Assembly (NCBI RefSeq): GCF_001305575.3
Contig: NZ_CP012373.2
Location: 2,046,001-2,110,000, forward strand
Direction: 5' to 3'
Source of the DNA: Beggiatoa leptomitoformis
GTDB taxonomy: Bacteria > Pseudomonadota > Gammaproteobacteria > Beggiatoales > Beggiatoaceae
Length of the DNA: 64,000 bases
Below the pieces are notes generated by a model. It was not told the DNA's origin and made no database searches. It saw nothing but the letters and a program-made list of their open reading frames with translations. Positions within the stretch are counted from its first letter, which is position 1; each line of letters starts with the position of its first letter. The translations under genes and the position numbers were made by a program. Below are positions 37,840 to 47,582 of this stretch, piece by piece.

Positions 37840-37942
37840 TTAATTTCGACTCAACGAGGTACAACGGCGTATCTCCATCAGGAAAAGTGCAACTGACCCA
37901 CAGACAACGCTGTCAAATAAGTCTGTTGCCGAATCGATTAAC

Positions 37943-38524
37943 ATGATGAAATTACGAGTTGTGTTGATAGATGAAGACCGTGGACGGATTGCTTTACTAA
38001 AGCAAGCCCTAGATGACGCAGGTTACGAAGTCGTCGCCACGCTCAAAACAGGGGTTGAACTACTAACCCAGTTAGAAAAAACACCTGCAGATATTATTAT
38101 TATCGATTTAGATTCGCCTGACCGTGACACATTAGAATATGTCAACAGTCTAAATCGAGAACAGCCTAAACCCGTGATTATGTTTGCTGAAGATGATGAC
38201 AGCGACATGATTCACGCCGCGATTAAAGCAGGGGTTAGTGCTTACGTTGTAGATGGATTAAGTGAAAAGCGGGTTAAATCCGTTTTAGAAGTTGCCATTG
38301 CGCGTTTTCGCGAATATCAAGCGATGCGCAAAGAGTTAGAAGATACGAAAAGTAAATTAGCTGAACGTAAATCCATTGAAAAAGCTAAAGGTATCTTAAT
38401 GCAACACAAAGGTTTAGATGAAGATTCAGCCTATCGCGCACTGCGTAAAATGGCAATGGACAGAAATATCCGCCTTGCAGAAGTCGCAGAAGACATTATT
38501 GCTGTCGCTAAACTACTGATATAA
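37943..38524 (+). CDS. nasT: nitrate-responsive ANTAR-domain antiterminator NasT, 193 aa
   Basis: RNA-binding antitermination protein. Residues about 3-120 form a response-regulator receiver-like fold. The phospho-acceptor position is Asp55 in IIIIDLDSPD, but the DE pair is LIDEDRG. The coiled coil MRKELEDTKSKLAERKSIEKAK leads into the ANTAR domain (about 140-190), with KGILMQHKGLDEDSAYRALR and the MAMD segment. This matches NasT of the NasS/NasT nitrate system. An ATG-ATG start allows 37943 or 37946. No nasS gene is present nearby. The RNA target is visible just downstream (38571-38651). Upstream lie a sigma-54 type promoter and an NtrC-like site. Confidence 0.92.
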   Translation: MMKLRVVLIDEDRGRIALLKQALDDAGYEVVATLKTGVELLTQLEKTPADIIIIDLDSPDRDTLEYVNSLNREQPKPVIMFAEDDDSDMIHAAIKAGVSAYVVDGLSEKRVKSVLEVAIARFREYQAMRKELEDTKSKLAERKSIEKAKGILMQHKGLDEDSAYRALRKMAMDRNIRLAEVAEDIIAVAKLLI

Positions 38525-38570
38525 CACTGTATAACTCAATCAACTTGAGTTAAGTAATGAACAACTGATA

Positions 38571-38590
38571 GCAAGCCAACGTTGGTTTGC
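38571..38590 (+). promoter_or_regulatory. ANTAR target hairpin P1 in the nrtA leader
   Basis: gcaagcc-aacgtt-ggtttgc: seven base pairs (one G-U) closing a six-base loop with A at position 1 and G at position 4, the features recognised by ANTAR proteins. Confidence 0.85.
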
Positions 38591-38594
38591 GCAC

Positions 38595-38610
38595 TGGACA
38601 ACGGCGTCCG
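38595..38610 (+). promoter_or_regulatory. ANTAR target hairpin P2 (antiterminator) in the nrtA leader
   Basis: ggac-aacggc-gtcc with a flanking T-G wobble, four bases after P1. The hexaloop again has A1 and G4. Its 3' arm (38606-38609) is also part of the terminator stem, so P2 and the terminator exclude each other. Confidence 0.85.
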
Positions 38611-38651
38611 TTTTAACGAGTGAAAGCTCGTTAGACGGACGCTTTTTTTTT
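38604..38651 (+). terminator. intrinsic terminator (attenuator) upstream of nrtA
   Basis: Outer stem gcgtccgt/acggacgc (38604-38611 with 38635-38642), inner stem taacgag/ctcgtta, loop tgaaag, then nine T (38643-38651). It lies 34 nt before the nrtA start and would block the operon unless P2 forms. Confidence 0.92.
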
Positions 38652-38685: not shown

Positions 38686-40086
38686 ATGCGTGATGCAATA
38701 AAATCTGGTTTTAATCGCCGCGATTTTCTGAAATTAACGGGTGCCGCCGTTGGAGGAGCAACACTAATGGGTATGGATTCATTACGTAGTCTGGTTTATG
38801 CAGGAACTGCTGATAATCTGGAAAAAGTTAAATTAACCTTAGGGATTATTCCCTTAACAGATTGCGCGCCCTTAGTCATTGCAAAAGAAAAAGGCTATTT
38901 CAAAAAATATGGCTTAGATGTTGAAATCTCTAAAGAAGCCTCTTGGGCAAATATTCGCGATAAAGTCTCAATTGGTGCATTAGACGGTGCGCACATGCTG
39001 GCAGGGATGCCCATTGCCGCGAGTTTAGGCGTTGGCGCATTACCAAAACCAACCATTACCGCTTATAGCATGGATTTAAATGGTAACGCGATTACCGTGA
39101 GCAACGAATTATATGGGCGCATGGTACAAGCTGACCCCGAAGCGATGAAAGCCTCACCAATGACCGCTATCGCGTTGAAAAAAGTCATTGATGCCGACAA
39201 AAAAGCAGGTAAAGAACCACTGACTTTTGCAATGGTTTTTCCTGTTTCTACACACAACTATCAACTACGTTACTGGATGGCCTCCGCAGGCATTAATCCT
39301 GACAAAGACGTACGTTTAATCGTCATTCCACCACCCCAAATGGTCGCCAACTTAAAAGCAGGCAACATTGTTGGCTACTGTGTCGGCGAGCCTTGGAATG
39401 AACGCGCAGTAACAATGGGTATTGGACGCACCATCATCACCAGCTATGAAATTTGGCAAAACAACCCTGAAAAAGTTTTCGGGGTAAATTTAGAATGGGC
39501 AGAAAAAAATCCCCATACGCATCAAGCCATTATTATGGCGTTATTAGACGCAGCGCAATGGATGGATAAGCCCGAAAATCGTCTGGAAGTGGTGAAAATT
39601 ATTTCCAGTAAATCCTATGTCAACGCGCCTGAAGATGTTGTCAAAATGTCCATGACGGGCACATTCCAATATAACGCGATGGAAGAACCGCGCCCATTGC
39701 CTGATTTCAACGTGTTCTACCGTTACGCCGCAACCTTCCCTTGGCAATCTCATGCAGCGTGGTTTATCTCCCAAATGATACGCTGGGGACAAATTGATAA
39801 GCCCTTACATATCAAGAAAACAGCCGCAGAAATTTATCGCCCTGATATTTACCGGGAAGCAGTGAAAGCCCTCAACTTACCTGCACCAATCATTGATTAC
39901 AAAACAGAAGGGACGAATGCCAACGCTTGGGAATTAAAAGAAGCAACCAACCCCATAGCAATGGGTGCCGATCGCTTTTTTGATGGAAAAACCTTCAACC
40001 CCGCCAACGTTGTGGAATACATCAGCAGTTTTGAAGTTCATAGCCTCGCCATGCAATTAGCCGATTTGGAGAAAGCAAATGTCTAA
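38686..40086 (+). CDS. nrtA: nitrate ABC transporter substrate-binding protein NrtA, 466 aa
   Basis: Periplasmic nitrate receptor of the NrtA/CmpA family. It has a twin-arginine signal with FNRRDFLKLTGAAVGG near residues 8-23. The mature part starts near AGTADNLEKVKLTLG and contains IPLTDCAPLVIAKEKGYFKKYGL, as in nitrate and bicarbonate binders. I start at the ATG at 38686, preceded by gggag; a TTG at 38650 would fall within the terminator T-run. The Tat signal distinguishes it from the cytoplasmic nitrate sensor NasS, which is a homologue without a signal. It overlaps nrtB by 8 nt. Confidence 0.93.
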   Translation: MRDAIKSGFNRRDFLKLTGAAVGGATLMGMDSLRSLVYAGTADNLEKVKLTLGIIPLTDCAPLVIAKEKGYFKKYGLDVEISKEASWANIRDKVSIGALDGAHMLAGMPIAASLGVGALPKPTITAYSMDLNGNAITVSNELYGRMVQADPEAMKASPMTAIALKKVIDADKKAGKEPLTFAMVFPVSTHNYQLRYWMASAGINPDKDVRLIVIPPPQMVANLKAGNIVGYCVGEPWNERAVTMGIGRTIITSYEIWQNNPEKVFGVNLEWAEKNPHTHQAIIMALLDAAQWMDKPENRLEVVKIISSKSYVNAPEDVVKMSMTGTFQYNAMEEPRPLPDFNVFYRYAATFPWQSHAAWFISQMIRWGQIDKPLHIKKTAAEIYRPDIYREAVKALNLPAPIIDYKTEGTNANAWELKEATNPIAMGADRFFDGKTFNPANVVEYISSFEVHSLAMQLADLEKANV

Positions 40087-41023
40087 TAATGCTGTTGTTA
40101 TTGCCTTACCGTTAAACCAAACGGGACATACTCATGAATCCACAAAACCCATAGCGACCTCTGTCACCATGAGCGTTGAATCTACAAATAAAAATGCGTC
40201 CCTAGCAACGCCTGAATTACCTAAGCAACCCAATTGGTTAGCGAGCAATTGGCAGGCTTATACCGCCGCTATCGTGTTACCGCTCATCACCTTTTCTATC
40301 GTGATTGGCTTGTGGTTCATTGTGCAAAAGCATTTCGCCACAGACTTACCCACACCAATAGACGTTTGGAATCGTGCAATAGAAGTATTCGCCAACCCTT
40401 TTTACGATGCAGGCCCTAATGATAAAGGTATCGGTTGGCAAGTGTTGTACTCCTTAGGGCGTGTTATGGCAGGCTTTTCACTCGCGGTACTTATTGGGAT
40501 TCCCGTTGGTTTTTTAATGGGAATGAGTGCAAATTTTTCCCGTGCTTGCACCCCATTAATTCAAATTTTACGCCCTGTCAGCCCATTAGCATGGCTACCA
40601 ATAGGCTTATTAATGTTTAAGGCTGTTGACCCTTCAGCAATTTTTGTGATTTTCATCACCAGTATTTGGCCCATCATTATCAATACCTCCGCAGGAGTGC
40701 GGGCAATTCCGAAAGATTACATGAATGTCGCTGCTGTATTACAACTGAATACCTTTGAAATAACACATAAAATTCTCTTACCATCGACACTACCGCATAT
40801 CCTTACAGGGATGCGTTTATCACTCAATATTGCATGGATGGTTATCGTAGCGGCGGAAATGCTCACGGGCGGTATCGGGATTGGTTTCTACGTCTGGGAC
40901 GAATGGAACAATTTAAATGTCAGCTCCATTGTCGTTGCGATTCTACTAATTGGTTTTGTCGGGATTCTCCTAGAAACCATTATGAATTTTATTCAATCCC
41001 GTTTTGATTACAACGCTCGTTAA
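40079..41023 (+). CDS. nrtB: nitrate ABC transporter permease NrtB, 314 aa
   Basis: Inner-membrane permease. A hydrophilic N-terminus of about 60 residues precedes six membrane helices, with the permease loop in LLPSTLPHILTGMRLSLNIAWM near residues 238-259 and the NrtB/SsuC-like ISPLAWLPIG equivalent PVSPLAWLPIGL near 168-179. The ggagaaagca site lies within the end of nrtA, which it overlaps, so translational coupling is likely. It belongs to the nrtABC-nirBD-nasA operon. Confidence 0.95.
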   Translation: MSNNAVVIALPLNQTGHTHESTKPIATSVTMSVESTNKNASLATPELPKQPNWLASNWQAYTAAIVLPLITFSIVIGLWFIVQKHFATDLPTPIDVWNRAIEVFANPFYDAGPNDKGIGWQVLYSLGRVMAGFSLAVLIGIPVGFLMGMSANFSRACTPLIQILRPVSPLAWLPIGLLMFKAVDPSAIFVIFITSIWPIIINTSAGVRAIPKDYMNVAAVLQLNTFEITHKILLPSTLPHILTGMRLSLNIAWMVIVAAEMLTGGIGIGFYVWDEWNNLNVSSIVVAILLIGFVGILLETIMNFIQSRFDYNAR

Positions 41024-41034
41024 GGATACACATC

Positions 41035-41826
41035 ATGAGCTACCTAAGCCTAGAACAAATAGAAATGGTGTTTAACACAAAATCGGGCGTATTCCACGCC
41101 TTACATGATGTCTCTTTACGGGTAGAAAAAGGCGAATTCGTTAGCCTCATTGGTCACTCAGGCTGTGGAAAATCTACAGTTTTAAACATCATTGCAGGTC
41201 TGTTAAAAGTTACCGCTGGCGGTGTGTTATTGGAAAATAAAGAAGTCAACGCCCCCGCACCAGAACGTGCGGTTGTATTTCAAAACCATTCCTTACTGCC
41301 TTGGCTCACCGTTTATGACAACGTACGTTTAGCGGTTGACAAAGTTTTTACCGATAAAAAAACCAAAGCGGAACGCCATGAATGGACATTACACCAATTA
41401 GAACTGGTCAACATGTTACACGCGCTGGAAAAACGCCCAAATGAAATATCAGGCGGGATGAAACAACGGGTCGGTATTGCGCGCGCTTTAGCGATGCAAC
41501 CCAAAGTGCTGCTGATGGATGAACCTTTTGGCGCGCTAGATGCCTTAACCCGTGCGCACTTACAAGACTCCGTAATGGAAATTCACGCAAACCTAGGCAA
41601 CACCGTCATCATGATTACCCATGATGTGGACGAAGCCGTTTTACTCTCCGACAAAATTGTCATGATGACCAATGGTCCCGCCGCAACGGTTGGGGAAATT
41701 CTCAAGGTCAAATTACCGCGCCCGCGTAACCGTTTAGCCTTAGCGGATAACCCTGAATATAACCATTATCGCGCTGAAGTTTTACGCTTTTTATACGAAA
41801 GACAAAAACATAAAGCAGTTGCTTAA
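41035..41826 (+). CDS. nrtC: nitrate ABC transporter ATPase (NrtC/NrtD type), 263 aa
   Basis: Energises nitrate import. Walker A is GHSGCGKST (near residues 40-48), the signature ISGGMKQRVGIARALA and Walker B VLLMDEPFGALD. The length equals NrtD-type subunits. The extra substrate-binding-like domain of cyanobacterial NrtC is absent, so a single ATPase gene serves as homodimer. It starts 11 nt after nrtB and ends 102 nt before nirB. The usual QNHSLLPWLTVYDNV Q-loop is present. Confidence 0.94.
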   Translation: MSYLSLEQIEMVFNTKSGVFHALHDVSLRVEKGEFVSLIGHSGCGKSTVLNIIAGLLKVTAGGVLLENKEVNAPAPERAVVFQNHSLLPWLTVYDNVRLAVDKVFTDKKTKAERHEWTLHQLELVNMLHALEKRPNEISGGMKQRVGIARALAMQPKVLLMDEPFGALDALTRAHLQDSVMEIHANLGNTVIMITHDVDEAVLLSDKIVMMTNGPAATVGEILKVKLPRPRNRLALADNPEYNHYRAEVLRFLYERQKHKAVA

Positions 41827-41928
41827 TTAAACCCTAAATAGTACGCAGTCTCTGATGAGAGCAGGGACTGTTACAAAAAATCGTCGCCTATTGTGTCATT
41901 CTTGATTGTTGTGTTTGAGGTCTTTCCC

Positions 41929-44412
41929 ATGAAAAAACGTAAACTGATTTGTATTGGTAATGGCATGGCGGGAATGCGTACCGTTGAAGAACTGCTCGCC
42001 CTTACCCCCGACTTATATGAAATTACTGTATTTGGCACAGAACAATACGGTAACTATAACCGCATTCTCCTATCACCCGTGTTATCTGGCGAAAAAGCTT
42101 TTGAAGACATAATGATACACAATGATGAATGGTACGCGACGCGCGGGATTACCTTACATAAAGGGCATACTGTTACCCAGATTAACCGCCAACAAAAAAC
42201 CGTTACCAGTGACAATGGCATCACCTTAGATTACGACAAACTCCTGATTGCAACAGGTTCTAATCCTTTCATGCTCCCTGTTGCAGGCAGTCAATTAGCG
42301 GGCATCGTCGCTTATCGGGACATCCGCGACGTAGAAGCTATGCTCACCGTTGCACGTTCAGGCACAGGCAAACATGCGGTTGTTATCGGTGGTGGTTTAT
42401 TAGGATTAGAAGCCGCTTACGGCTTACAAAAACAAGGCATGACGGTCACTGTCGTCCATTTACTCGACACCTTAATGGAACGGCAATTAGACAAACCCGC
42501 CGCCAATTTACTCAAAGCCCATTTAGAAAAACAAGGCTTAAATTTCCGCTTAGAAGCACAAACTGACTGCTTCTTAGGTGAAAATCATGTGCAAGCAATT
42601 CGCTTTAAAGATGGACACGAATTACCCGCTGATTTAATCGTGATGGCGGTTGGAATTCGTCCCAATATCAACCTAGCAAAAAGTGCGAATTTAGAATGCG
42701 GGCGCGGTTTACTCGTCAATGACCACTTACAAACCAGCGACAACGATGTTTTCGCGGTGGGTGAATGCGTCGAACACCGTCAACAAATTTACGGTTTAGT
42801 CGCGCCCCTATACGAACAAGCCAAAGTCTGCGCCCACCATTTAGCCGATATTGGCGGTAAACACTATGAAGGCTCAGTAACCTCTACCAAATTAAAAGTA
42901 ACAGGCGTTGATGTTTTCTCAGCGGGCGATTTTCTTGGCAACGAAAAAACCGAAAGCATTATTTTTCAAGACCCCAGCATGGGCATATATAAAAAATTAG
43001 TCTTGGAAGATAACAAAGTTAAAGGCGCGGTCATGGTTGGCGATACCACCGATGGCGCATGGTATTTTCAACTATTACGCGATGGTGAAGATGTCAGCAC
43101 AATGCGGGAACGCATTCTATTTGGTCAAGCCTTCGCCCTCACAGGCGACGGTGGAAGCAATACAAGCCTTGTTGCCAGCATGGCAGATGATAACCAGATT
43201 TGCGGATGCAATGGCGTTTGCAAAGGCACAATCGTACAAGCTATTCAAGAAAAAGGCTTAACCACACTCGAAGAAGTCCGCAAACAAACAGGTGCATCAG
43301 CCTCTTGTGGCGGTTGCTCAGGTCTGGTTGAACAACTTTTAATGCTAGTCAACGGTGAAGATGCGGTAAAACCCACAAAAAAAATAATGTGTGCTTGTAC
43401 CGACATGAGCCACGACGAAGTTCGTGAAGCGATTACACACACCGACGTGTACACCGTTGCAGAACTCATGAAATCCTTAAATTGGAAAACCCCTGACGGT
43501 TGCACTACCTGCCGTCCTGCCCTGAATTACTACCTACTCTCCACCCATCCCGATAAAGCCCAAGACGATTATCAATCTCGCTTTATCAATGAACGCGCCC
43601 ACGCCAACATTCAAAAAGATGGCACTTACTCTGTCGTTCCCCGCATTTGGGGTGGTTTAACCACGCCCGACGAATTGCGCGCCATTGCCAACGTTGCTGA
43701 TAAATACAGCGTTCCAACGGTCAAAATCACAGGCGGGCAACGTATCGACCTGCTCGGGGTGAAAAAAGAAGACTTGCCCGCCATGTGGGCAGACCTTAAC
43801 GAAGCGGGTATGGTCTCAGGCTACGCCTACGGTAAATCTTTACGCACCGTAAAAACCTGCGTTGGTTCAACATGGTGTCGATTTGGTACACAAGACGCGA
43901 TGGGCATGGGCATTAAATTGGAACAAATGACATGGGGTTCATGGACACCGCACAAAGTCAAACTGGCTGTTTCAGGCTGTCCACGTAACTGCGCAGAAGC
44001 CACAATTAAAGATTTTGGCGTTGTTGCTGTTGATTCTGGTTGGGAATTACACGTTGGGGGCAATGGCGGGATTAAAGTCCGTGCTACCGATTTACTCTGT
44101 AAAGTCAATACAGAAGAAGAAGTTATGGAATACTGCGGCGCGTTTATGCAAATTTACCGCGAAGAAGCGCGATATTTAGAACGAACTGCCCACTGGATTG
44201 AACGGGTTGGTGTGGAATACGTCAAAAAGCAAATAGTTGAAAATGCTGAAAATCGTAAACATTACTACGACCGTTTTTTACAATCCCAAATAACCGCACA
44301 AAAAGACCCTTGGGCAGAACGGGCAAAAGCAGGCGTGCATGAACACGAGTTTAAGGCAATGAAACACATAGATATTGTTAAATTAGCTGATATTTCTTCT
44401 AAAGTCGCCTAA
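41929..44412 (+). CDS. nirB: assimilatory nitrite reductase [NAD(P)H] large subunit, 827 aa
   Basis: Reduces nitrite to ammonium with six electrons in the cytoplasm. An N-terminal FAD/NAD(P)H oxidoreductase domain (LICIGNGMAGMRTVEEL at residues 5-21; VVIGGGLLGLEAAYGL near 150) is followed by two BFD-type [2Fe-2S] units (CGCNGVCKG...CGGCSG, CACTDMS...GCTTCRP). The siroheme nitrite/sulfite reductase part has TCVGSTWCRFG and SGCPRNC, which bind the [4Fe-4S]-siroheme centre. I choose the ATG at 41929 (MKKRKLICIGNG), preceded by gagg, over an in-frame start at 41893. nirD follows across a palindromic repeat. Confidence 0.96.
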   Translation: MKKRKLICIGNGMAGMRTVEELLALTPDLYEITVFGTEQYGNYNRILLSPVLSGEKAFEDIMIHNDEWYATRGITLHKGHTVTQINRQQKTVTSDNGITLDYDKLLIATGSNPFMLPVAGSQLAGIVAYRDIRDVEAMLTVARSGTGKHAVVIGGGLLGLEAAYGLQKQGMTVTVVHLLDTLMERQLDKPAANLLKAHLEKQGLNFRLEAQTDCFLGENHVQAIRFKDGHELPADLIVMAVGIRPNINLAKSANLECGRGLLVNDHLQTSDNDVFAVGECVEHRQQIYGLVAPLYEQAKVCAHHLADIGGKHYEGSVTSTKLKVTGVDVFSAGDFLGNEKTESIIFQDPSMGIYKKLVLEDNKVKGAVMVGDTTDGAWYFQLLRDGEDVSTMRERILFGQAFALTGDGGSNTSLVASMADDNQICGCNGVCKGTIVQAIQEKGLTTLEEVRKQTGASASCGGCSGLVEQLLMLVNGEDAVKPTKKIMCACTDMSHDEVREAITHTDVYTVAELMKSLNWKTPDGCTTCRPALNYYLLSTHPDKAQDDYQSRFINERAHANIQKDGTYSVVPRIWGGLTTPDELRAIANVADKYSVPTVKITGGQRIDLLGVKKEDLPAMWADLNEAGMVSGYAYGKSLRTVKTCVGSTWCRFGTQDAMGMGIKLEQMTWGSWTPHKVKLAVSGCPRNCAEATIKDFGVVAVDSGWELHVGGNGGIKVRATDLLCKVNTEEEVMEYCGAFMQIYREEARYLERTAHWIERVGVEYVKKQIVENAENRKHYYDRFLQSQITAQKDPWAERAKAGVHEHEFKAMKHIDIVKLADISSKVA

Positions 44413-44413
44413 A

Positions 44414-44513
44414 TGTCCAAACCATAATTCACGTAACTAACACAATTTACTTAATTTTTTAATACTTTTAAATTGTGTCAATTAAGTTAATTGTGCAAAT
44501 TATGGTTCAGACA
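44414..44513. repeat. 100-bp palindromic unit between nirB and nirD
   Basis: Ends tgtccaaaccataatt and aattatggttcagaca are inverted repeats, and the interior (cacaatttacttaa...ttaagttaattgtg) is also palindromic. It is a diverged relative of the 114-bp units at 20.2 kb. It sits inside the operon, so it should be transcribed and form a long mRNA hairpin. Confidence 0.85.
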
Positions 44514-44540
44514 ATATTTTTTTTCTCACAGGAAAACATC

Positions 44541-44870
44541 ATGAGCCATTGGATAGACATTGGAAAAATTGACGACATCCCCCGTTTAGGTGCGCGCATT
44601 GTAGAACTGGGTAAACAAAAAGTTGCCGTATTTCGCACCAGTAACGATGCTGTGTTTGCCTTAAATGACCGTTGCCCGCACAAAGGCGGGGTTTTATCAC
44701 AAGGCATTGTAACGGGTTATAGCGTCACCTGTCCCTTACACAGTTGGAATATTCAACTGGATAACGGTTGCGTAACTGAACCGAATAAAGGTTGTGTGCG
44801 TAAATTTCCCATCAAAATAGAAAACGGACAATTGTTTATTTCCCTAACGCCAGAAACTGCGCCTGCTTAA
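44541..44870 (+). CDS. nirD: nitrite reductase small subunit, Rieske type, 109 aa
   Basis: Small subunit of the assimilatory nitrite reductase. It is a Rieske-fold domain with intact cluster ligands: CPHKGG and CPLHSW (C-x-H and C-x2-H) near residues 45-70. The E. coli NirD lacks these ligands; forms with the complete motif, like NasE of Bacillus, have them. The start is the ATG at 44541 (MSHWIDIGKID), with aggaaa upstream. The reading frame is open further up to 44475, but that would include the palindromic repeat. Confidence 0.94.
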   Translation: MSHWIDIGKIDDIPRLGARIVELGKQKVAVFRTSNDAVFALNDRCPHKGGVLSQGIVTGYSVTCPLHSWNIQLDNGCVTEPNKGCVRKFPIKIENGQLFISLTPETAPA

Positions 44871-44903
44871 CCCCCTGCAACCGCACTACATAAGGTTTTG
44901 TAT

Positions 44904-47582
44904 ATGACTGATTCAACAACTCAAACCACCTGCCCCTATTGCGGCGTTGGCTGTGGTGTGGTGGCAACCCAAGAAGGGGATAAAATCACCGTGAAAGGGG
45001 ATAAAACCCATCCCGCTAATTTTGGACGTTTATGCTCTAAAGGCGCGGCACTGGCGGAAACGCTAGACCTAGAAGGGCGTTTATTACACCCTGAAATTTA
45101 TGGACAAGTCACCGACTGGGAAACCGCCTTAAACACCACCGCCACCGCCTTAAACGACATCATCCAAAAATACGGTAATTCAGCCATTGGCTTCTACGTC
45201 TCGGGACAATTATTAACTGAAGATTACTACGTTGCTAACAAATTAATGAAAGGCTATATCGGCACCGCTAACATCGACAGCAATTCCCGCCTGTGCATGG
45301 CATCAAGCGTTGCAGGACATAAACGCGCCTTTGGTAGCGACACTGTCCCTGTTGACTACAGCGACCTTGAAAAAGCTGACCTTATTGTCATTGTCGGCTC
45401 TAATCTGGCATGGTGTCACCCTGTTTTATTCCAACGCATCAGTGCTGCACGTCAACAACGCAATGATAAATTAAAAATTGTCGTTATCGACCCGCGTCGT
45501 ACCGCAACCTGCGATATTGCCGATTTACATTTACCGATTAAAACAGGGGTTGATGTCACCTTATTTAATGGCTTACTGCATCACTTACGCGCCCATGACC
45601 ATTTAGACTACCGTTTTATCGAACAATCCACCCAAGGTTTTGCCAACGCATTACAAACCGCAAAAGAAACCGCCAATTCAATACCCGCAATTGCCCAACA
45701 TTGTGGCGTGAGCGAAGCTGATATTATTGAATTTTATCGCCTATTTGCCCGCACAGAAAAAGTTGTCACCCTCTATTCACAAGGGGTTAATCAATCCAGC
45801 AGTGGCACAGATAAAGTCAACAGCATCATCAACTGCCATCTTGCAACAGGACGAATTGGGCGCGTCGGTATGGGGCCTTTTTCCATCACAGGACAACCCA
45901 ACGCCATGGGTGGGCGCGAAGTCGGTGCATTAGCTAACCAACTGGCGGCACACTTAGATTTTGAACCTGAACACCAAGCTATCGTTCAAAATTATTGGCA
46001 ATCACCCACTATTGCCTTGCAGGCAGGGCTAAAAGCGGTGGATATGTTTGAAGCCATTGAAAAAGGGGATATCAAAGCAGTGTGGATTATGGCAACCAAT
46101 CCTGTTGTCAGCTTACCCAATGCCGAGCGGATTAAAACCGCTTTAGCCCGCTGTGAATTAGTCATCATTTCCGACTGTGTACGCAATAACGACACCGTCC
46201 CCTACGCTCACATTCTGCTACCTGCCCAAACATGGGGCGAGAAAGAAGGCACAGTCACCAACTCAGAAAGACGCATTTCTCGCCAACGCGCTTTTTTAAC
46301 TGCACCTGCTGATGCCAAACCCGACTGGTGGATAATCAGCCAAGTCGCCCAACATATGGGCTACCAATACGGTTTTAACTATCAATCACCTGCTGATATT
46401 TTCCGCGAATATGCAGGCTTATCAGGCATTGAAAATAATGGTCATCGTGATTTTGACATCAGCATATTGAGCCAACTTTCTGATGCAGAATATCAAACCT
46501 TAACACCTTATCAATGGTCGCCCCGTTCTGCACTGCAAACGACAGCAGAAAATCGCCCGCGTTTTTTTGCAGATGGACGTTTTTATACCTTGTCAGGCAA
46601 AGCTAATTTCGTCCCCGTGCGCCCTATCGCCCCAAAAAGTGAAAGTAATTCAACTTTTCCACTGATTCTTAATACAGGACGAATTCGTGACCAATGGCAC
46701 ACCATGACGCGCACAGGCAAAACCCCGCGCCTGCTCTCGCATATTAGCGAACCTTTTGTCGACATTCATCCTGAAGATGCACAAGCCTTCGATATTAAAG
46801 ATAACGAGCTTGTTTGTCTTAACAGCGCACTACAACAAATCATCGTCCGCGCCAAATTAAGCGAGGGACAAAAACGCGGTTATCTGTTCAGCCCTATGCA
46901 CTGGAATGCGCAATTTAGCGCGCAAGCCCGTGTCGGTACATTGATTGCGTCCCACACCGACCCGTATTCGGGACAACCTGAATTTAAACATACCCCTGTT
47001 GCAGTCAGTCGCTATCAAGCCAGATGGTACGGCTTCTTATTGTCCAAAAATCCGCTTGAATTGCCACCAAGCGCGGGAATACGCTACTGGGCAAAAATTC
47101 CACAACAAGGCTTTATACAATATGAATTTGCAGGTGATGACCCCCCAGAAAATTGGGCAACATGGGCAAATACCTACTTTGGTGCGGATAAAAACTGGCT
47201 AGAATTTGCCGACCCTGCACATGGTCGTTACCGTTGTGCAAATGTACAGGATGATTTGTTAAATATTTGTTTATTTATTAGCCGTGATATGCAGTTACCT
47301 AGCCGTATTGGACTCAGCGAACTTTTTAACCATCCGCTAAGCCTAACAGACCGATTAAGTCTATTAACAGGACAAATAGGCAAAAACGTGGCAGAGCGCG
47401 GCGACACTGTTTGTTCTTGCTTTGGTGTTGGACGTGCAACAATTATTAAAACAATTCAGGAACAGGGAATTAATAGCGTTACACAACTAGGTGAGATTTT
47501 AAAAGCAGGGACTAATTGCGGGTCTTGTATTCCTGAGTTAAAACAGTTAGTAGCGCAACATGCTATTAAACAGGTGGCTTAA
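44904..47582 (+). CDS. nasA: assimilatory nitrate reductase catalytic subunit, 892 aa
   Basis: Molybdopterin enzyme reducing nitrate to nitrite in the cytoplasm. The N-terminus TCPYCGVGCGV with RLCSKGAALA carries the [4Fe-4S] cluster (C-x2-C-x3-C-x27-C). Molybdopterin-binding segments follow, including CMASSVAGHKRAFGSD and GPFSITGQPNAMGGREVG. No Tat signal is present, consistent with a cytoplasmic assimilatory form. The C-terminal 60 residues form a BFD-like [2Fe-2S] domain (CSCFGVG...CGSC), as in Klebsiella NasA. The ATG at 44904 is chosen; a TTG lies two codons upstream. Last gene of the operon. Confidence 0.96.
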   Translation: MTDSTTQTTCPYCGVGCGVVATQEGDKITVKGDKTHPANFGRLCSKGAALAETLDLEGRLLHPEIYGQVTDWETALNTTATALNDIIQKYGNSAIGFYVSGQLLTEDYYVANKLMKGYIGTANIDSNSRLCMASSVAGHKRAFGSDTVPVDYSDLEKADLIVIVGSNLAWCHPVLFQRISAARQQRNDKLKIVVIDPRRTATCDIADLHLPIKTGVDVTLFNGLLHHLRAHDHLDYRFIEQSTQGFANALQTAKETANSIPAIAQHCGVSEADIIEFYRLFARTEKVVTLYSQGVNQSSSGTDKVNSIINCHLATGRIGRVGMGPFSITGQPNAMGGREVGALANQLAAHLDFEPEHQAIVQNYWQSPTIALQAGLKAVDMFEAIEKGDIKAVWIMATNPVVSLPNAERIKTALARCELVIISDCVRNNDTVPYAHILLPAQTWGEKEGTVTNSERRISRQRAFLTAPADAKPDWWIISQVAQHMGYQYGFNYQSPADIFREYAGLSGIENNGHRDFDISILSQLSDAEYQTLTPYQWSPRSALQTTAENRPRFFADGRFYTLSGKANFVPVRPIAPKSESNSTFPLILNTGRIRDQWHTMTRTGKTPRLLSHISEPFVDIHPEDAQAFDIKDNELVCLNSALQQIIVRAKLSEGQKRGYLFSPMHWNAQFSAQARVGTLIASHTDPYSGQPEFKHTPVAVSRYQARWYGFLLSKNPLELPPSAGIRYWAKIPQQGFIQYEFAGDDPPENWATWANTYFGADKNWLEFADPAHGRYRCANVQDDLLNICLFISRDMQLPSRIGLSELFNHPLSLTDRLSLLTGQIGKNVAERGDTVCSCFGVGRATIIKTIQEQGINSVTQLGEILKAGTNCGSCIPELKQLVAQHAIKQVA

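Follow-up and report, generated by a model that had tools for sequence, protein, structure and literature searches.

How a nitrate-assimilation operon could be switched by the regulator NasT in a genome without NasS is the question raised by one locus of Beggiatoa leptomitoformis. In Paracoccus, NasT is kept bound by a signal-less NasS, and nitrate breaks up this complex (PMC3795266). We analyzed a stretch of 64,000 nucleotides (the window) from the complete genome, a single contig of 4,265,317 bp, in which nasT is followed on the forward strand, after a spacer, by nrtA, nrtB, nrtC, nirB, nirD and nasA.

The nasT gene (37943-38524) encodes a REC + ANTAR regulator of 193 aa, which domain and genome searches identify as the sole ANTAR protein of the genome, and it adjoins the leader, as a preliminary description of this DNA had stated. 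Its start codon (37943) is preceded by no recognizable Shine-Dalgarno sequence (0.1 kcal/mol). Family and profile searches place the product of nrtA (38686-40086) among the CmpA/NrtA-family nitrate-binding proteins, with a twin-arginine signal and a stretch of the SWA..RDK type. The genes for the nitrate ABC permease NrtB (40079-41023; TIGR01183), an NrtC/D-type nitrate ABC ATPase (41035-41826; TIGR01184), the nitrite reductase large subunit NirB (41893-44412; TIGR02374; true start probably at 41926) and the small subunit NirD (44475-44870; TIGR02378) all scored above the cut-offs of these models. The last gene (44898-47582) encodes a NasA-type assimilatory nitrate reductase, recognized as a molybdopterin oxidoreductase with a C-terminal BFD domain, which reached no equivalog cut-off.

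The leader between nasT and nrtA

The spacer measures 161 nt, since nasT stops at 38524 and nrtA begins at 38686, and it harbors the two hexaloop hairpins, about four bases apart, that had been read there in the preliminary description. The first, P1 (38571-38590), is GCAAGCC-AACGTT-GGTTTGC with a 7-bp stem; the second, P2 (38595-38610), is (U)GGAC-AACGGC-GUCC(G), running from 38595/6 to 38609/10, with 4 bp and a U-G pair. Both loops have A at position 1 and G at position 4 (A1/G4), and the linker GCAC counts 4 nt with the U38595-G38610 pair and 5 nt without it. P2 overlaps an intrinsic terminator (38604-38651), recognized from sequence and folding, whose stem (38604-38642) is followed by nine T (38643-38651), then GC and then eight T; the stem folds at -25.5 kcal/mol, and P1 and P2 jointly at -17.0 kcal/mol. 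As also proposed earlier, the 3' arm of P2 (38606-38609) is contained in the 5' arm of the terminator, and P2 and the terminator are therefore mutually exclusive. The folding suggested as a check placed the 166-nt leader 5.0 s.d. above its shuffles in stability. In the minimum-energy fold an extra pair closes the P1 loop, giving a tetraloop, and the hexaloop reading is retained because it is conserved in relatives. Scans for sigma-70 and sigma-54 promoters gave no match above chance. A small hairpin (AACTCAA...TTGAGTT, 38531-38552), also present in the sister genome G005, stands right 3' of the nasT stop and has no T tract.

Given that short stems and loops are easily found by eye, the leader could be merely a strong terminator behind chance hairpins, with no ANTAR regulation. 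We scanned the 64-kb window and random strands for two nearby A1/G4 hexaloop hairpins with a terminator over the second. This combination occurs once in the window, at the nasT-nrtA site, and in none of 60 Markov-random 64-kb strands of matching dinucleotide make-up. A leave-genus-out covariance model, built from no sequence of the window's genus, has a single match in the whole genome, the leader site (42.5 bits, E 3.8e-7). Among 43 genomes of the order, a covariance-model search found strong sites in seven of the eight that bear NasT and in none of the 35 without it, where nothing exceeded 21.6 bits; the informative part of this census is the absence elsewhere, because the family's sites were in the training set of that model. 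In the eighth NasT genome (G035), nasT and the gene that follows it are not separated by such a leader.

Covariation in orthologous leaders, whose absence would have spoken against the earlier proposal, was abundant. Sites were aligned with linkers padded with N. In 13 curated sites, which were chosen partly by their stems, 97.9% of cells are paired, both sides change in 8 of 11 pairs, no shuffle attains the covariation score (0/500) and slid structures remain below 44% paired; every site of this set has A1 and G4 in both loops, A1/G4 itself having been a selection rule. Because the curated sites were picked partly by stems, the count was redone on 37 sites in other genomes of the class, found by the leave-genus-out model. 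Here, in an alignment fitted to the model and hence leaning towards it, 97.4% of cells are paired, 83 cells show double changes and again none of 500 shuffles matches the covariation score.

The random strands, the genome-unique model match, the covariation and the co-occurrence with NasT contradict a chance origin of the hairpins and make it very improbable. The leader has the features of an ANTAR dual-hexaloop RNA: two A1/G4 hexaloop hairpins with stems of at least 3 bp, stems kept by compensatory change, a P2 overlapping an intrinsic terminator and an ANTAR-domain protein in the genome. Because of the rare combination, the unique model match, the covariation and the co-occurrence, we conclude from sequence comparison that the nasT-nrtA leader is very probably a NasT-dependent ANTAR transcription attenuator, and the antiterminator originally suggested is thus strongly supported. 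Of the Rfam families, just one, the narK RNA (RF03032), matches the site at all (38571-38608, 23.6 bits, E 0.05); the match stays below the gathering score of 43.2, and the family has another gene context. We considered and dropped the idea that the NasT regulon of the genome is larger, as there is no second covariance-model match.

The attenuator is a further example of an already known RNA class, in a system departing from the textbook NasS-NasT, and extends that class to giant sulfur bacteria. Like the Enterococcus eut RNAs targeted by EutV (PMC3369931, PMC8934654), it has two A1/G4 hexaloops, a few-nt linker and P2 in the terminator stem; EutV, however, is switched by EutW phosphorylation, whereas the NasT of the window lacks a phosphorylation context. 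With the nasF leader of Klebsiella and its regulator NasR (PMC3369931) it shares a nitrate-assimilation operon, an A1/G4 hexaloop and ANTAR antitermination, but NasR has a nitrate-sensing NIT domain of its own. The Paracoccus denitrificans system (PMC3795266, PMC5424462) is similar in its REC + ANTAR NasT and in a hairpin/terminator leader between regulatory and nitrate-assimilation genes; there, nasS adjoins nasT upstream of the leader, whereas the genome studied here has no NasS and encodes, behind the leader, a member of the NasS protein family, the twin-arginine NrtA.

NasT binding and antitermination are modeled on work on EutV, NasR and NasT. RNA polymerase passing nasT would copy P1, P2 and the strong terminator in turn. 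Without active NasT, the 3' arm of P2 would pair into the terminator and transcription would stop before nrtA. Free dimeric NasT would bind the P1 hexaloop and then P2, which would stay closed, and nrtABC-nirBD-nasA would be read.

Nitrate sensing without NasS

According to the preliminary description, the locus seemed to unite a sensor arm with the RNA target and the operon. The RNA target and the operon (nrtABC-nirBD-nasA) are indeed together; the sensor arm is not there, because NasS is absent from both locus and genome, and NasT is the RNA-binding arm. Three kinds of search of the complete genome found no cytosolic, signal-less NasS, the partner by which a NasS-NasT system is recognized. 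A 15-member NasS profile matched NrtA alone, NrtA as query matched nothing in the genome but itself, and Pfam PF13379 matched, besides NrtA, one distant protein whose N-terminus is lipoprotein-like. NrtA, with its twin-arginine export signal, is the only NasS/NrtA-family protein of the genome. The sensor is either absent or NrtA itself.

Loss of NasS as a peculiarity of this organism was an idea we dropped, since it is common among other NasT genomes: NasT occurs with exported family members only in four Beggiatoaceae genomes, Ralstonia, Moraxellaceae and others. Many NasT regulators lack NasS as a nitrate sensor. Neither a NasT lacking NasS nor a dual-start nrtA is reported in the literature searched, to which most subscription papers did not belong; this is weak evidence of novelty. 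In two related genomes (G040, G041) a signal-less NrtA homologue occupies the nrtA slot, and in place of the ABC partners stands a carrier that looks NarK-type, as named from its sequence; with the ABC partners gone and a carrier in their stead, the best reading of this binding protein is as a sensor. On the NrtA-family tree, the NrtA of the window clusters, with modest support, close to these signal-less proteins, and the export trait has changed three times or more. At locus L057 of G035, a signal-less NrtA homologue lies 74 nt after nasT, with an N-terminus that resembles the tail of a twin-arginine signal. It adjoins no leader, nrtBC or nirB and is read as a sensor-only remnant.

A signature in the binding proteins and one in NasT bear on the question. 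The stretch SWA..RDK is found in most signal-less NasS and in exported proteins of the window NrtA's kind, and ANWKVLLD in most exported members of NasS-bearing genomes. Synechocystis NrtA (PDB 2g29), in the family of the window NrtA (E 1e-76) and sharing its SW..RD stretch, has the near-identical SWGTTRDN. Because of this near-identity, SWA..RDK is no proof of NasS function, and its use as a mark of NasS alone was given up. We know of no link between the Synechocystis protein and an ANTAR regulator.

The N-terminal domain of NasT is a Response_reg receiver, so that NasT has the REC + ANTAR architecture of NasS-NasT systems, and no NIT domain is fused to its ANTAR domain as in one-component NasR. 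The receiver retains D55 and has A82 and D104 where phosphorylated receivers have Thr and Lys; the complete phosphorylation site of the EutVW type (Asp, Thr/Ser, Lys) is not present. The receiver pair R61-D62, kept in the window's NasT, occurs in 67 of 69 NasTs from genomes that encode an SWA-type binding protein, be it cytosolic or exported (44/44 with cytosolic NasS, 23/25 with an exported SWA-type protein only) and in none of 25 without one (0/18 with the NW type only, 0/7 with no binding protein found). On a NasT tree built with the motif left out, about 9 changes fall on R61-D62 and about 10 on the SWA-type protein, and the two go together in five of five independent well-supported pairs, a number with which P cannot fall below 0.0625. 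This pattern suggests that NasT has retained a surface for contact with the SWA-type protein, including where the latter is exported. Five genomes of 1.1-1.6 Mb (G135, G231, G366, G081 and G304; loci L211-L215) have a NasT-like protein that has lost R61-D62, and a search for a NasS/NrtA-family protein in them found none.

We lean slightly towards a reading in which nitrate-free NrtA would hold NasT inactive, either in a signal-less form started at 38767 or while still a folded twin-arginine precursor. Since twin-arginine substrates are already folded in the cytoplasm when they are exported, the NrtA precursor could reach NasT. As nrtA lies behind the attenuator that it would control, the circuit would, with NrtA as sensor, form a negative feedback loop. 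A different possibility is that the attenuator works with a constitutively active NasT, ungated by NrtA or NasS, whose amount sets readthrough by way of the nasT promoter, general nitrogen control or autoregulation through a hairpin at 37856-37875. NasS is absent, as this would have it, and in Paracoccus excess free NasT permits transcription without nitrate (PMC5424462); yet R61-D62 is kept here and lost where there is no SWA-type protein, a sign that NasT may still use a partner, and we regard a constitutive NasT as unlikely. Quite unlikely, too, is gating by an unrelated sensor elsewhere in the genome, such as a kinase or another nitrate-binding protein: genomes with the NW type only or with no binding protein keep NasT-like proteins, so NasT can live without the family, but those NasTs have lost the R61-D62 that the window's NasT has kept, and D104 and A82 in place of Lys and Thr speak against a kinase.

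A possible internal start in the nrtA signal

A candidate answer to how nitrate is perceived without NasS, to which the data point, is an exported nitrate-binding protein doubling as sensor, possibly via a second start codon. Within the nrtA signal, a Shine-Dalgarno sequence GGAGGAG (38752-38758) precedes an in-frame ATG (38767, codon 28), the whole site spanning 38752-38769; its anti-Shine-Dalgarno pairing amounts to -9.3 kcal/mol vs -6.9 kcal/mol at the annotated nrtA start. With a threshold of -9 kcal/mol or better, such an internal site with a start is present in 17 of 28 exported SWA-type proteins of NasS-less genomes (9/20 by lineage), compared with 2 of 40 other twin-arginine signals of related genomes (lineage-based P 0.0004), none of 20 NW-type signals and 1.5% of segments elsewhere in SWA-type genes. 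The pattern recurs in several proteobacterial lineages that have no NasS, among them Beggiatoaceae, Ralstonia and Moraxellaceae; about half of the lineages lacking NasS do not show it.

It is possible, if rather doubtful, that one gene has two starts here, the full NrtA being exported for the transporter and the codon-28 form staying in the cytosol to hold NasT as a NasS-like sensor. If true, the transporter subunit and the transcription sensor would be isoforms of nrtA, encoded behind the attenuator that they control. There is an even chance that the internal motif is unrelated to initiation, a by-product of Gly-Gly-rich twin-arginine signals or a translational pause that aids export. For the window's nrtA alone, synonymous recoding gives no significance to the internal Shine-Dalgarno (P ~0.30), since the amino acids of the signal nearly dictate the motif, as a by-product would require. 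Over 20 lineages, however, synonymous recoding reveals an excess (Fisher P 2e-4) that exported NW-type signals do not show (P 0.74), and the motif is rare in the other twin-arginine signals of those genomes. Against a by-product also stands the signal-less homologue of G035, which begins at about the codon-28 point (MHSPIDSSLSPAAVYAGNGQGLEK) and which we read as a natural counterpart of the predicted short NrtA form.

A hairpin upstream of nasT

A further AACGGC hexaloop hairpin, with 7 bp, lies 5' of nasT (37856-37875, forward strand) and, from comparison with relatives, is a possible single-hexaloop NasT site. At the aligned place, G005 has GAAACAC-AACGAT-GTGTTTC, in which nearly the whole stem is changed and compensated. 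A 3-bp hairpin, GAC-AACGCT-GTC (37903-37914, forward strand), weak alone, is a possible second arm and aligns with a compensated AGC-AACGTC-GCT in G005. All six attenuator-bearing family members tested have AANG (A1/G4) hexaloop hairpins 5' of nasT. Outside the family, four loci had one vs about 1.8 expected, and the hairpin was dropped as a general feature.

Actinobacteria are known to have ANTAR targets that overlie ribosome sites (PMC8164766), and according to one proposal the minimal ANTAR site is a single hexaloop (PMC8934654); given these two precedents, nasT autoregulation via 37856-37875 is plausible. The actinobacterial RNAs, comparable in this respect, have dual stem-loops (PMC8164766), whereas the site upstream of nasT is one good hairpin with at most a 3-bp second. 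The hairpin would add a terminator-independent NasT target. In G040 and G041, 6-7 nt separate its end from the nasT start.
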